Positions 5,259 to 33,910 of a DNA stretch of 64,000 nucleotides are shown here, piece by piece (positions within the stretch are counted from its first letter, which is position 1; each line of letters opens with the position of its first letter). Source of the stretch: Yinghuangia seranimata (GTDB lineage: Bacteria; Actinomycetota; Actinomycetes; Streptomycetales; Streptomycetaceae); the NCBI RefSeq assembly GCF_029953285.1, contig NZ_JASAOI010000017.1:124001-188000 (forward strand), read 5' to 3'. A model generated the notes under the pieces. It searched no databases. It saw only the letters and a list, made by a program, of their open reading frames with translations, and was not told the DNA's origin. The position numbers and the translations under genes are program-made.

Positions 5259-5729
5259 CTACCAGCGGTAGTGCGCGAAGGCCTTGTTGGACTCGGCCAT
5301 CTTGTGGGTGTCCTCGCGCTTCTTGACGGAAGCGCCGAGGCCGTTGCTGGCGTCGAGCAGCTCGTTCATCAGGCGCTCGGTCATGGTCTTCTCGCGGCGG
5401 GCGCGCGAGTAGCCGACGAGCCAGCGCAGCGCGAGCGTCGTGGAGCGGCCGGGGCGGACCTCGACCGGGACCTGGTAGGTCGCGCCACCGACACGGCGGC
5501 TGCGGACCTCGAGGGTCGGCTTCACGTTCTCGAGCGCGCGCTTCAGCGTGATGACCGGGTCGGTGCCGGTCTTCTCACGGCAGCCCTCGAGGGCGCCGTA
5601 CACGATCCGCTCGGCGGTGGAGCGCTTGCCGTTCAGCAGGACCTTGTTCACCAGCGAGGTGACAAGCGGCGAGTTGTAGACCGGGTCGATGATGACCGGT
5701 CGCTTCGGGGCCGGGCCCTTGCGAGGCAT
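5259..5729 (-). CDS. rpsG: 30S ribosomal protein S7
   Basis: S7 nucleates assembly of the small-subunit head. The 156-residue protein starts [20 protein letters not shown] and ends [11 protein letters not shown], the standard family ends. Its ATG overlaps the rpsL stop by one base (TAATG), implying translational coupling. In E. coli S7 is the str operon feedback repressor; the tight coupling is compatible with that, but no S7-binding site is identified here. Confidence 0.98.
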
Positions 5730-27641: not shown

Positions 27642-29846
27642 TCAGACGGGGTCTGGCGCGGCCCAGGCGTGCGCGGTCAGGGCCGCGTCGACGGCCCTCG
27701 TATAGGTGGTGGCGGCCAGCCACGCACGGGCCAGCGCGTCGGCGTCTCCCGGCAGCAGCCGGCCGAACACGTCGCGCCCCCGGTCGGCGGACGCGGCGAC
27801 CAGCGCCTCGAGGAGGTCCGCCCCTGTGACCAGGCCGTCTCGGCGCAAACGGGCGGCGTCGCGGGCCATAGGGGTGAGAGGCGCGGCCGCCGGGGAGGCG
27901 GTGGCGGAGACCGGTGCGGCGGCGAGGGCCAGCGCGGCACGGCCGCCCGAGACGGCGCGCTCGACGTGCCGGGACAGCAGATAGGCGGGGGCCTGGTCGG
28001 GGGTGGCGAACGCCGGCGCGGGGGCGGGCTGCGGGGGGCGTGCGCCGGAGTGATCAGGGGACGGGGCGTGCTCCCGGCGGGCCGGCGCGGCCTGCGAAGT
28101 CGGCGAAGTCGGTGTGGGCGCGGTGACGTCGGCGCGTTGCAGACGGTCGAGGCCGAGGTTGACGCGCACGCGGAGGGTGTCGGGGGTGGGGTCGTGCGCC
28201 GTTTCGCCGGATGGGGCGACCGGGGCCGGGCCTGCCGCGAGTGCTCGTACGGCGGGCTGCGCGCCGGGTTCGAGACGGCCGACGATGCGGAGGCGCAGGC
28301 CCGGGCGGGTCGCGAGGAGGCGGAGGTTGTCGCGGTACGGCAGCGCGGGGTGGTCGTCGGCGACCAGGAGATGGACGGTCAGTCCGCCGCACCGGGCCGC
28401 GACGCGGTCGGCACCGGACGCGGACGCCACCGGGCCGAGCAGCTCGACGTCCAGGAAGACCAGGTCGGAGCCTGCCGGGCGGGCGTCCGGCGGAAGGTCG
28501 GCGAGGGTGCGCAGGACGCGGGCGACCTGGTCGGCAGGGGGCTCCGCCCACAGCGCGGCGAGCGGGTCGTCGTGCCAGGCGGCGCCGGACGCGCTCACGG
28601 CACGGACCGAGGCGCCCGCGCCGAGACGTCCGGTCGGCGACTCGGTGGCGCCGGAGACGATGAGGCCCGCGCGGGAGAGCTGGTGGTGGTCCAGAGCGGT
28701 GTCGCCCAGGCGTACGGCCCGCGCGGCGGCACCGGCGATGCGGGCGGCGCCGCCCGGCATCACGTCGGACACGGTGCGCAGGGCGCGACTGCCCGGGGCG
28801 AGCGTGTAGGTGACGACGCCGGCGTGGCCGGTCGCGGTGTTGATCGGCTCGGTGAACACGCCGTAGAGGCGCAGGGAGCCGGCGTGGGTGTAGGGCTGAC
28901 GCGCGGTGCCGATGAGGACGGCGGTCGCGTCGGGGGTGGGCCGGTCCCTTTCCGAGCCGGGTTCCGGGCCTTCGGAGATCCGGGACAACTCGCGAGCGGT
29001 GTCGAGGAGTTCGTGGGTTGCGGCGATGAGGTCGGCGAGCCGGTGGGAGGGGTCGTCGGCGCGGGCGGCGCGGAGCCCGGTGGTCACGGCGACGGCCGCG
29101 GCGGCGGGCCTGTGCAGACCCGCGAGCTTGGCGGCGTGCGCGGCGCGGAGCAGGCCGGCCTGGAGCACGGCGCCGGAGCCGGAGACCCCGGCGTCGAGAA
29201 CGGTGGCGGCGGCGGACCAGAGGGCTTGGGCGGCGGATGAGGCCTGTGTGGTGAGCGCGGCGCCGGCGGATGAGGCCTGTCCGGTGAGCGCGGCGCCCGC
29301 TGCTGAAGCGGGCACGGAGACCGCAGTGTCGGCCGCCGAGGCGGATCCAGGAGCGGCGGTGTGATGATCGCACCGCGAACTCGGGCCCCCACCTTGGGGG
29401 TTTAGCACGGGTGAGGCGAGAGCGACCCCGCACTGTGCACAGGTGCCGTGTGATGATCCGACCGGGGCGGCGGTGGCGTCGTCGGCGGCCGGTGCGGGCG
29501 CCGACGGGTCGGTCGTCTCCGGTTCCGGTGCGGCGGGTTCGTCGTCGACCGACGGCGTCAGGGACGACACGGCCGCGGCACGGTGCACGCACGCCGGGGC
29601 CAACAGGCACGAGCACCGCACGTCTTCGGCGGTGCGCACGAGCGATCCGGGCGCGTGCAGCGTCAGTTCGGCGTCCTCGTCGACGGCGATACGGACCGTG
29701 TCGGCGTCCTGGGTGACGGGTCGGGCGGCGAGCTTGTCGACGGCGGCGTCGAGGCGCTTGCGCAGCCTCGGCGACAGGGCGTCGACGATCTCCGCGACCG
29801 CCTCGGGGCGTACCGCGATCGCACGCAGGTCCACGGTGTCGGTCAA
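27642..29846 (-). CDS. SWIM zinc-finger protein of the MoxR-VWA operon (YehQ-like)
   Basis: A 734-residue protein, the last gene of the operon. The SWIM motif is Cys78-x-Cys80-x5-Cys86-x-His88 (RCSCLLAPACVHRAAA), a zinc-binding fold that mediates protein or nucleic-acid contacts. A Pro/Ala/Asp-rich linker carries a second Cys cluster (Cys136, Cys139, Cys159) homologous to one in the preceding VWA gene, but with Ser at one ligand position. The rest is alpha/beta with Ala-rich linkers and no recognised fold. The start is TTG at 29846, in a TTGA overlap with the VWA stop. The E. coli counterpart by order is YehQ. Function is unknown. Confidence 0.82.
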   Translation of the reverse strand: MTDTVDLRAIAVRPEAVAEIVDALSPRLRKRLDAAVDKLAARPVTQDADTVRIAVDEDAELTLHAPGSLVRTAEDVRCSCLLAPACVHRAAAVSSLTPSVDDEPAAPEPETTDPSAPAPAADDATAAPVGSSHGTCAQCGVALASPVLNPQGGGPSSRCDHHTAAPGSASAADTAVSVPASAAGAALTGQASSAGAALTTQASSAAQALWSAAATVLDAGVSGSGAVLQAGLLRAAHAAKLAGLHRPAAAAVAVTTGLRAARADDPSHRLADLIAATHELLDTARELSRISEGPEPGSERDRPTPDATAVLIGTARQPYTHAGSLRLYGVFTEPINTATGHAGVVTYTLAPGSRALRTVSDVMPGGAARIAGAAARAVRLGDTALDHHQLSRAGLIVSGATESPTGRLGAGASVRAVSASGAAWHDDPLAALWAEPPADQVARVLRTLADLPPDARPAGSDLVFLDVELLGPVASASGADRVAARCGGLTVHLLVADDHPALPYRDNLRLLATRPGLRLRIVGRLEPGAQPAVRALAAGPAPVAPSGETAHDPTPDTLRVRVNLGLDRLQRADVTAPTPTSPTSQAAPARREHAPSPDHSGARPPQPAPAPAFATPDQAPAYLLSRHVERAVSGGRAALALAAAPVSATASPAAAPLTPMARDAARLRRDGLVTGADLLEALVAASADRGRDVFGRLLPGDADALARAWLAATTYTRAVDAALTAHAWAAPDPV
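29359..29475. repeat. Cys-rich cassette copy A with flanking 11-bp direct repeats
   Basis: This segment aligns without gaps to 31107-31223 in the neighbouring gene, at about 75% identity by eye from 29371 on. It has a CCCCCA/TGGGGG hairpin core near 29386-29400. GTGTGATGATC occurs at 29359-29369 and again at 29448-29458, 89 bases apart and in different reading frames. It encodes the second Cys cluster of the SWIM protein. Confidence 0.7.
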
Positions 29847-32800
29847 CGGACTTTCTCCCCTACCCAGCGGGCCAGTTCGGTCGGGCTGAGGGCCGCCACC
29901 GGCATGCCCGCGCCGACGAGTTGCGAGGCGACGGCCGTCGAGTAGCGCGGCTTGCCGCGGTCGTCGAGGCTCGCGCAGCCGAGGACGTGGCAGCCGGAGC
30001 CGACCAGCGTGCGCACCTCCGCGAGCAGTCCGCCGAGCGGCCAGCCCTCCTCGAAGTCGCTGACCACGGCAACGAGGGTGCGCGACGGCACGGTGACGAG
30101 CTCGCGGGCGTACCGCAGGCCCGCGGCGATGTGCGTGCCGCCTCCGACGCGGACGTCCAGGAGCAGGCCCAGCGGGTCGTGGACCTGGTCGGTGAAGTCG
30201 ACGACCTCGGTGGAGAACGCGACGAAGTGCGTGGTCAGCGCGGGCACTCCGGCGAGGATCGAGGCGGTCAGGGCCGACCAGATCGTCGAGGCCTCCATCG
30301 AGCCGGACACGTCGACGACGAGGATGAGCCGCCAGTCGGCGGCCCGGCGGGCCTTCGTACGGAAGACCGGCCGCTCGGGGACGACGGTGACCACGCCGTC
30401 CGGGCCCATGGGGCGCGCGGTGGCGAGGTTGGCGCGGATGGTGCGCGGAAGGTCGAGGCCTCCCCCGGGGCGGCGGCTCGGGCGCGGGACGGACAGCCCG
30501 GAGAGCGCCGGCCGCATGCGGGTGGCGAGCTCGCGGGTCAGCTCGGCGACGATGCGGTCGACGAGCGGGCGCAGCGCGGCGATCCGCGACTCGGGCAGGC
30601 CACCCGCGTGTTCGAGGACGGCCCGCAGCAGGTCGACGGACGGCCGGGCGGACCCGGGGTCGAGCTCGGAAACGGCGTCACGGCGCCCGGCGGCCACGGC
30701 GGCCGCGAGGACCTCCTCGCGGACCCCGGGCCCGAACAGCGCCGCGAGGTCCTCCGACCAGTCACGGGCGGACGGATAAGCAGGTTCCCGCCCGGCCCCC
30801 GCCCCGGGAGCGCCGCCGCCGAGATCCCCACGCGACCCTTCGCCGCGCCCGGCCCCGTAGAGCTCGTCCAGCGCGGCCCCGAGCCGCGCGACCCGCGCCC
30901 CGGACCGGTCGACCCGCCGGCCGAGGACCAGCCGCCAACGAGCCTCGGGAGCGAGTGTGAGGGGGGCCGACGAGGTGGGTGCGGGCTGCGCAGACGAGGA
31001 GGGCGTGTCCGCCGCGGGAGGCTCGCCCGACGCGGGGGGCTCGCCCGACGCAGCGGTGGAGGGCTGAGCAGGTGCAGGTACGGCGGCCTTCGAGGCGCCC
31101 GACGCGGTCTGATCGTCACACCGCGAACACAGGCCCCCAGCTTGGGGGTCTACCGCAGACGGCACGAGAGCGGCCCCGCAGCGTCCACAGGACCGGGGTG
31201 ATGATCCGACCGGAACGGCGGCGGGAGCGGACAGCTCTGGTTTCGGCGAGGTCGTCTCGTGCGGGTCGGGGTGGGGTGTCAGGGCGGGGGCGGACGAGCC
31301 TGGATTCGGGGAGCCGGGTTCGGGCTGCGGCGGCGTCGTGGTCGGCAGTAGGCCGCGTTCGCGCAGCGCCGTGCGGCCGGCCAGGTCGGCTGCGGCCCAG
31401 GAGGCGAGGGTTTCCGGGGACGTGTCCGTCGTGGTGTCGACCGTGGACTCCAGGCGGTCCTCGATCACCGCCAGGAGCCTTTCGCGGGCCGCCGGGCTGA
31501 GGGTGTCGAAGCCGCCGCGCAGGGCCGGGAGGCGGGTGAGGAAGTCCTCGTCGGGGAGCTCCGCGACGCGGTCGAGCAGGGGCTCCAGGGCGGCTCCGCC
31601 GGCGCTCAGGAGTGGGCCGGCGGCGGTCAGGAGGCCGGTCATGCGGCGGACGAGGTCGGCGCGGCGGTCGGGCGTGGTGGCCTCGTCGAGCCACGAGGCG
31701 ACGCGTTCGCCGAACCGTTCGGCCGGCTGGTGGCCGAGCAGGACCCGTACGGCGCCCGCCGCAGCGGCCATCATCGGGGCTGCGTCGGTGTCCAGGCGGG
31801 TGAGGGCGTCGGCGAGCCTGAGACCGCCGAACGTGTCGGCTCGGCGGGCGAGTTCGACGACGGCGCGGGCGTCGGCGGGGTCCTCGGAGCCGCTGAGCCC
31901 GTCGAGCCGTCGGACGGCGGCCGCGGTGAGGTCGGCGCTGACGTCGGCGGTCTCGTCGGGGGCGTCCGGCAGGCCGGGGATGTGCCCGTTCGCCCACCGG
32001 TCCAGCAGCGCGAGACCGGACAGGAGTTCGGGCAGTGTCGCGAGTCCCGGCACGAACGCGTCGACCTCGGCGAGGCGTTCGGCGGCGAGCGCCTCCAGGC
32101 CGCACTGGGCGGCCTCCTCCAGCCCCGCGAGCACCTGGGCCGCGGTCGGCCCGCCGTCCTCGTGTTCGCGGCGCCTACGCTCGCGCAGCACGCCTTCCGC
32201 GGCCTGTTCGGGGGTGACGCCGCGGATGCCGGCGACGTCCAGCATCGCGGCGGTCGACGGCGACCAGCGGACCCGCCAGCGGGTGGTCAGCGCGTCGGCG
32301 CCGCCGGTGCCGACCACGTCGACGGGTTCCGCGTACGGGATCCGGCACACGTCGAGCCGCCGCAGGAGCAGTTCGCGGTGCCGGTCGAGGTCGGCGCGCA
32401 GCGGGTCGAGGCGCAGGTCGCGCTCGTCGTCGCCGGCCGCCGTACGCGAGCCGCCACGCCCGCCGGCCGGGCCGCCGCCGGCCGGGCGGCGGCGTGCGGT
32501 GCCGGGCTCGGGTGCGGGCTCGTGCGGGCCCGGCAGCCCGAGTTCGGCGAGTTCGGCCTCGACGGCGGGTCCGAGGCCGCTGCGCGGTGTGCCGGGCGCG
32601 CGGCGTCCGGCGCGCGTGCCGACCAGCACGCGTTCGAGGGCGCGCGCGACGGCGCGGCCCCGGCCGAGGGGTTCGCCGTGGGTGAGCGCGGTCTGCGCGG
32701 CCTCGGCGAACTCGCCGCGTCCGGCGGCGGGGAGGCCGCGCAGGGCGGCCAGGTCGGTCGCGATGCGCACGACCTCGCGGGCGTCGGCGGGTCCCGACGG

Positions 32801-33910
32801 GTGGCCCTGGGCGCGCAGTTCCGCGCACACGCGGGTGGCGGTGCGGGTGAGGGCGTCGTACAGCCGTGCGGGGTCGCCGCCGGCCTCGAACACCTGCTGC
32901 TGCCACTCGGGGTCGCGGATGCCCGCCGGGTAGCCCGAGCGCTCGTCGAGGAGCGCGTGGGTGTACGGGACGAGGGAGGTGACGACGGGTTCGGCGTCCT
33001 CGGCGAAGTCGCCTTCCACGTCGGCCTGTTCGGCAACCGTTCCGAGCAGGAGCGCCGGGGCGTGGAAGGCGCCGACGACCGCGGTGGCGCGGGCTCCGTC
33101 GGCGGTGGCCTCGCGTACGGCCCGCCGCATCCACGCTTCGCGGCGCAGGTCGACCGGGTCGACGCCGGGGCCGGCGGCGGCGTCGCGGCGGAGCGCCCAG
33201 CCGACCATGAGCGCGGCCCGGCGTACCGCCTCGGGCGTCGAACCCGGGGCGGACGCCTCGACGAGGCGGTCCCACAGGTCGTCGCCGGGGCGCCCGGAGA
33301 GGCGGCGGCTGAGCGCGGCGTGCAGCGTGGGCGCGGCGGCCGCGCCGGCGGGCGGCTCGGACGGTTCCCAGCCGCGGTGTGCGAGGGGCAGGTCGCACGC
33401 GACGACGGGGACTCCGGCGCGGGCCGCCCAGCGTACGGCGGCCAGTTCCGGCGAGAAGTCCGCGAACGGGTAGAACCCGAGCCCGTGCGGCCCGGACCCG
33501 GCGAGCGCGACCGGCGCCTCGGTCTCGGGGTGCGCCAGCCACGGCAGCCAGTCCTGGAGGTCGGCCGGGAGCTCGACGAGCACGACGTCGGGCTTCGCGG
33601 CGTCGAGCAGCGCGGGCATGGCCGCCGCGAGTGACGGCGCGTGGTGCCGGACGCCGACCAGGTGCGGCCGGTCGGCGGCGGCGAGCCGGGCCGCGGCCGC
33701 ATCGGGGGCGTCGTCCGCGGCGAGCCGGTCCGCGGCGGCATCGGAGCCATTGGCCGCAGCGAAAGCGCCGGCCGCGACGGACGCACCGACCGCGTCGAAG
33801 GCACCGGCCTCGTCGAAAGCGCCGGTCGCGTCGGGGGTACCGACAGCCGCCCCGCGAGAGGCCGGGACCGGCCCGGCCTCTCGCGCGAACTCGTCGAAAT
33901 CACTCGGCAC
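29843..33910 (-). CDS. DUF5682-VWA fusion protein (YehM-YehP fusion)
   Basis: A 1355-residue protein from a GTG at 33910, four bases after the moxR stop. The first 80 residues are Ala/Asp low complexity. DUF5682 follows (HLVGVRHHAPSLAAAMPALL, DVVLVELPADLQDW, VPVVACDLPLAHRGWEP, VVGAFHAPALLLG), reaching to about residue 820. A Pro/Ser/Glu linker contains a four-Cys zinc-ribbon-like element (CGRC...CSRC, about 903-928). The C-terminal VWA domain (about 1190-1355) has an intact MIDAS start DVSGSM (about 1199) and the Thr/Asp sites (GGGTHIAAGL, VVSDFEEGWP). E. coli has these halves as separate proteins. VWA proteins act as adaptors for MoxR ATPases; the DUF5682 activity is unknown. Confidence 0.85.
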   Translation of the reverse strand: MPSDFDEFAREAGPVPASRGAAVGTPDATGAFDEAGAFDAVGASVAAGAFAAANGSDAAADRLAADDAPDAAAARLAAADRPHLVGVRHHAPSLAAAMPALLDAAKPDVVLVELPADLQDWLPWLAHPETEAPVALAGSGPHGLGFYPFADFSPELAAVRWAARAGVPVVACDLPLAHRGWEPSEPPAGAAAAPTLHAALSRRLSGRPGDDLWDRLVEASAPGSTPEAVRRAALMVGWALRRDAAAGPGVDPVDLRREAWMRRAVREATADGARATAVVGAFHAPALLLGTVAEQADVEGDFAEDAEPVVTSLVPYTHALLDERSGYPAGIRDPEWQQQVFEAGGDPARLYDALTRTATRVCAELRAQGHPSGPADAREVVRIATDLAALRGLPAAGRGEFAEAAQTALTHGEPLGRGRAVARALERVLVGTRAGRRAPGTPRSGLGPAVEAELAELGLPGPHEPAPEPGTARRRPAGGGPAGGRGGSRTAAGDDERDLRLDPLRADLDRHRELLLRRLDVCRIPYAEPVDVVGTGGADALTTRWRVRWSPSTAAMLDVAGIRGVTPEQAAEGVLRERRRREHEDGGPTAAQVLAGLEEAAQCGLEALAAERLAEVDAFVPGLATLPELLSGLALLDRWANGHIPGLPDAPDETADVSADLTAAAVRRLDGLSGSEDPADARAVVELARRADTFGGLRLADALTRLDTDAAPMMAAAAGAVRVLLGHQPAERFGERVASWLDEATTPDRRADLVRRMTGLLTAAGPLLSAGGAALEPLLDRVAELPDEDFLTRLPALRGGFDTLSPAARERLLAVIEDRLESTVDTTTDTSPETLASWAAADLAGRTALRERGLLPTTTPPQPEPGSPNPGSSAPALTPHPDPHETTSPKPELSAPAAVPVGSSPRSCGRCGAALVPSAVDPQAGGLCSRCDDQTASGASKAAVPAPAQPSTAASGEPPASGEPPAADTPSSSAQPAPTSSAPLTLAPEARWRLVLGRRVDRSGARVARLGAALDELYGAGRGEGSRGDLGGGAPGAGAGREPAYPSARDWSEDLAALFGPGVREEVLAAAVAAGRRDAVSELDPGSARPSVDLLRAVLEHAGGLPESRIAALRPLVDRIVAELTRELATRMRPALSGLSVPRPSRRPGGGLDLPRTIRANLATARPMGPDGVVTVVPERPVFRTKARRAADWRLILVVDVSGSMEASTIWSALTASILAGVPALTTHFVAFSTEVVDFTDQVHDPLGLLLDVRVGGGTHIAAGLRYARELVTVPSRTLVAVVSDFEEGWPLGGLLAEVRTLVGSGCHVLGCASLDDRGKPRYSTAVASQLVGAGMPVAALSPTELARWVGEKVR
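31111..31223. repeat. Cys-rich cassette copy B
   Basis: The homologue of the 29359-29475 cassette, in the same reading frame, encoding PVGSSPRSCGRCGAALVPSA then PQAGGLCSRCDDQT. Here all four Cys are kept. The hairpin core is CCCCCAGCTTGGGGG (31134-31148). The right flank GTGATGATCCGACCG is near-identical to copy A; the left flank is degenerate. Confidence 0.7.

Follow-up and report, generated by a model that had tools for sequence, protein, structure and literature searches.

Short palindromic repeats have been found within or next to the genes of several bacteria. Rickettsia palindromic elements (RPE) are palindromic repeats of about 150 bp that lie in frame in unrelated protein genes, where they are tolerated (PMC10969869). 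The RU-1, RU-2 and RU-3 repeats of enterobacteria are MITE-like, intergenic and 103-168 bp long; they contain chance ORFs and are sometimes fused in frame to genes (PMC2759123). REPINs, or REP doublets, have two palindromes per unit with a spacer able to form hairpins, are mostly extragenic, and show spacings of 71 and 110 bp (PMC3116915). The titles and abstracts of open-access papers covered by a limited search contain no report of such elements in Streptomyces or other Actinobacteria.

Here we analyse a sequence cassette that occurs twice, as copies A and B, in adjacent genes of the window, the 64,000-nucleotide stretch of DNA under study. Very probably, both copies are members of a lineage-specific, non-coding dispersed repeat, bounded by palindromes and MITE- or REPIN-like, that is tolerated in frame in two protein linkers. 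This would provide an actinobacterial case of intergenic palindromic repeats turned protein sequence, as in Rickettsia. Like RPE, the element is dispersed, shows inverted symmetry and falls within about 100-150 nt: it measures 108 nt, has a 19-bp quasi-palindrome at either end and occurs in at least about nine further copies. A and B, moreover, are in-frame insertions in protein genes that are absent from orthologues. Unlike RPE, nearly all of its copies are intergenic, the only two genic copies found being in adjacent linkers, and the likeness seen is one of behaviour. The RU repeats belong to another phylum and their fusions are reported for C-terminal regions, whereas A and B lie in internal linkers of a gene pair; here too the likeness seen is one of behaviour. 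With REPINs the element shares the paired-palindrome plan, since an inverted doublet is present in A, B and the intergenic copy C; however, conserved blocks also lie in its spacer and its copy number is far lower. Similar to bacterial MITEs, it is short and dispersed, has no gene of its own and carries imperfect terminal inverted repeats, but no target-site duplication was evident on inspection of the borders of A, B and C.

Host genes and the two in-gene copies

The two host genes overlap and are both on the minus strand (Table 1). The first encodes a protein whose CxC-LLAP-x-C-x-HRAA motif is kept in orthologues, with a weak Pfam SWIM match that is below the cut-off. The product of the second matches DUF5682 (E 9e-203) and VWA_CoxE (E 2e-60) in Pfam. 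A preliminary description of this DNA had aligned 29371-29475 with 31119-31223 without gaps, at about 75% identity by eye. The measured identity is 78.1%, and the full match comprises 121 ungapped nucleotides (29356-29476 against 31104-31224, 78% identity). The copies pair codon on codon in the same reading frame of both genes, as had been claimed, and each has the CCCCCA/TGGGGG core that the description assigned to it. The linker match between A and B scored 97.8 bits, whereas none of 9312 comparisons of VWA linkers with SWIM linkers between different genomes exceeded 60.8 bits. Judged by these alignment scores, the similarity is far beyond chance. Outside the copies, identity downstream is at background (27-37%; mean 35%) and identity upstream falls towards it (47-60%).

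Table 1. Coordinates in the window of the host genes, the two in-gene copies and their sequence features
Feature	Position	Strand	Remarks
SWIM-motif protein gene	27642..29846	-	734-aa ORF; copy A in low-complexity linker
DUF5682 + VWA_CoxE protein gene	29843..33910	-	1355 aa; copy B in linker before VWA domain
Copy A of dispersed element	29356..29465	-	In frame in SWIM gene; aligned repeat 29356-29476; 87.6 bits with refined model
Copy B of dispersed element	31104..31213	-	In frame in VWA gene; aligned repeat 31104-31224; 84.4 bits with refined model
Terminal 19-bp quasi-palindrome, copy A	29357..29375	.	CGGTGTGATGATCGCACCG; fits pattern CGGTNNGANNRTCNNACCG
Other terminal quasi-palindrome, copy A	29446..29464	.	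89 bp from first; one mismatch to pattern
Terminal quasi-palindrome, copy B	31105..31123	.	Palindrome pattern search
Other terminal quasi-palindrome, copy B	31194..31212	.	89 bp from first; one mismatch to pattern
CCCCC/GGGGG hairpin, copy A	29386..29400	.	CCCCCA/TGGGGG core; common to intergenic copies C, D, G
CCCCC/GGGGG hairpin, copy B	31134..31148	.	CCCCCA/TGGGGG core
CCTGTG box, copy A	29437..29443	-	Source of first Cys codon (TGT)
CCTGTGG box, copy B	31185..31191	-	Source of first Cys codon (TGT)

Architecture of the element

The element consists of a 19-bp quasi-palindrome (CGGTNNGANNRTCNNACCG), a CCTGTGGAC box, about 28 variable nucleotides, the blocks TGCTAnACCCCC...GTGGGGGC, and a second quasi-palindrome. 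In A, B and C the terminal quasi-palindromes are 88-89 bp apart and form an inverted pair of the REP-doublet type. Measured from palindrome to palindrome, the in-gene copies are 108 nt long, a multiple of three, and intergenic copy C is 107 nt long. The two ends pair imperfectly as terminal inverted repeats, with most pairs retained in these three copies. Genome-wide, the palindrome pattern has 10 forward-strand matches versus 1 for a reversed control pattern, and CCTGTG is kept in 7/7 aligned copies. Apart from the hairpins, no stable common RNA fold was found, folding z-scores being near zero for A and B, and Rfam gave no relevant family match for the element.

Copies elsewhere in the genome and in relatives

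The preliminary description had proposed a BLASTN copy count as the way to tell a mobile element from a domain duplication. Plain BLASTN turned out to be misleading: in the window's own genome it recovered only A and B plus short weak pieces, which would suggest a private domain duplication, and what it returned from 298 family genomes was limited to short fragments that look like chance matches. Further copies were revealed by profile searches. A profile of A and B led to a third full-length copy, C, which lies between genes (G000:C47:5768-5888; L133:1501-1621), and a covariance model led to a fourth (contig C2:96030-96148). Copies were then counted by model searches that scored the best 93-150 candidates per genome, and all counts are lower bounds. 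The relatives searched were Streptomycetaceae, with the window's own genus represented by three genomes. A refined model gave at least 12 matches in the window's genome (G000), two of which are one stretch present on both contig C26 and contig C49; beyond A and B, at least about nine further places in this genome carry the element. The congener G001 has at least four matches; among the candidates scored, G002 yielded no copies and 38 other genomes yielded nothing above 20 bits.

On the evidence of ORFs and codon composition, all copies except A and B are apparently intergenic. They are few and divergent, with about 56-69% identity to A and B, and the weakest ones are uncertain. Some lie between convergent genes, in either orientation (L138, L262). 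The dnaX-ybaB spacer of the window's genome is 525 nt long and holds two head-to-tail copies; in G001, G002 and G005 the orthologous spacer is empty of the element and has a length of about 150-200 nt. The preliminary description had left two origins open, two in-frame insertions of a small palindromic element or a zinc-ribbon module duplicated between partners. Intergenic copies in the same genome, together with a site that is empty in relatives, support the first.

These distributions also bear on another reading, in which the dispersed repeats would be paired operators or promoters of a regulon and coding sequence would have captured two of these cis-regulatory regions. A pair of palindromic sites with a spacing of 88-89 bp does resemble dimer operators, and the GGAAC-N17/18-CGTT spacing of a repeat family in G001, described below, resembles an ECF promoter. 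However, copies also occur between convergent genes and in both orientations, the dnaX-ybaB spacer of congeners has none, and no copies were found among the candidates scored in G002. We consider a regulon origin unlikely.

Several individual copies have features of their own. At its start, immediately behind the stop codon of a gene, copy C (L133:1501-1621) has a long, perfect hairpin that this gene probably uses as a terminator; the folding z-scores of the two strands are -3.2 and -5.2. The stretch shared by contigs C26 and C49 (L138 and L139) has identical flanking genes and is probably redundant assembly. The matches L137 and L138 have another centre in common, TTGCTACACATCGCAATGGGAACCGCGCCCGCGGTG, and may form a second subfamily. 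Sequences similar to the element's left half, GATCATCA...CCTGTGGAYAAC, are also present in two further family genomes (L042:1501-1546 and L046:1500-1538), a hint that the repeat family is older and more widespread.

The encoded peptide

As had been described, the cassette reads CGRC...CSRC in the VWA protein, whereas the SWIM protein has CAQC...SSRC. A zinc-ribbon interaction module, duplicated between the two partner proteins, would account for the common frame, the CxxC spacing and the location in adjacent genes of one operon. Such a ribbon implies four ligands under protein-level selection, but two complete CxxC knuckles occur only in the VWA copy, the SWIM copy being short of one Cys (SSRC). 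The differences between A and B are distributed 9/9/9 over codon positions 1/2/3, and all codon changes except 2 synonymous ones are non-synonymous. This comparison suggests that there is no protein-level constraint on the cassette.

Homologous DNA also lies between genes. Read in the frame of A and B, the intergenic copies begin in the same way (PVGSSDRPCGR...) and then run into stops (several copies) or other residues. The CCTGTGG box supplies the first Cys codon, TGT, and the last Cys lies within the terminal palindrome (CGGTGYGA), so the cysteines appear to be, in part, by-products of the DNA motifs of the element. Pfam detected no zinc ribbon in the cassette. The VWA linker, when modelled by AlphaFold2 from a single sequence, was unstructured, with a pLDDT of about 45 over the cassette; this is weak evidence. 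Among 97 SWIM/VWA gene pairs, CxxC was present in one other SWIM linker (L096) and in no other VWA linker. We therefore regard the duplicated module, the second of the two origins proposed earlier, as very improbable. A neat CxxC...CxxC motif common to two adjacent proteins may be a by-product of repeat DNA, and this calls for caution.

Orthologous linkers and the sister species

The same 97 gene pairs served as the sample for linker comparisons. Similarity between the two linkers of a pair rose above the cross-genome range in 2/97 pairs, those of the window's genome and of the congener G001. The element is absent from the orthologous linkers of other genomes. No precise empty site could be defined for A or B because the linkers are too variable.

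In G001, another cassette is common to the SWIM and VWA linkers, in the same frame and with 85% identity over 163 nt; it has no visible relation to the window's element. It is also a dispersed repeat: at E 4e-17 or better, G001 has at least 12 copies of it. None was found at that level among the candidates scored in G000, G002 or 22 other family genomes. Two unrelated repeat families thus appear to have each entered the same pair of disordered linkers in two congeners, and chance alone can hardly account for this. The SWIM and VWA linkers may therefore be a recurrent landing or tolerance site. The two congeners form a natural replicate, each with its own, unrelated repeat family in this pair of linkers. 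They make it possible to study whether elements land preferentially in disordered linkers of neighbouring subunits, and by what route copies pass from one gene to the adjacent one.

The G001 repeat (L083:3607-3697, 5526-5616 and 10 other places) opens with GGAAC-N17/18-CGTT, which is ECF sigma promoter-like. This start is followed by about 60 nt that are strongly conserved and non-structured. It could act as a promoter that is mobile, or as the leader of a regulon.

Origin of the two in-gene copies

We propose that a non-autonomous palindromic element, normally intergenic, entered two disordered, fast-changing linkers. Read in frame the element is open and its 108 nt keep the frame, and it would therefore be tolerated as about 36 extra residues in each linker. 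It presumably moves, or moved, via an enzyme that acts on its palindromic ends. The copy in the second linker would have come from the first, or together with it, as a unit, given that no other copy is as close to A or B as these two are to one another. In both species the nearest relatives are the two in-gene copies (78% vs at most 69% to other copies for the window's element; 94% vs at most 74% in G001), with modest tree support for their being neighbours (0.67 and 0.87). A and B also have in common a centre that is otherwise variable (65% vs 32-41%), and the most likely source of the second copy is therefore the first copy or a parent common to both.

Nearest-neighbour in-gene copies are also the outcome expected from recombination between the genes. 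After a single insertion, local recombination or non-allelic gene conversion could have copied the element across 1.75 kb into the other linker. The mutual closeness of the in-gene copies in both species and the shared centre of A and B agree with such an event. A conversion tract, however, would be expected to include flank, and the similarity falls at or near the element ends; this favours insertion as a unit over a broad conversion tract. We view gene conversion as a possible second step, held tentatively. It is a variant of the insertion of a dispersed repeat that we favour, and is compatible with it.

The linkers of interacting partners might also co-acquire matched elements, the repeat being copied from linker to linker and the resulting likeness favoured. 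If true, this would explain why two unrelated families occur in exactly both linkers and at no other coding site found. We consider it rather unlikely.

The low GC3 of the cassettes was considered as a strong sign of non-coding origin and rejected, several orthologous linkers being equally low. Since many linkers in the SWIM/VWA family have low GC3, we treat this property as suggestive. In other genera, regions of the VWA gene carry tandem repeats of their own with units of about 90-105 nt (L088:4423-4883, from Embleya, and L092:1668-2086), and the VWA gene therefore seems prone to repeat growth.
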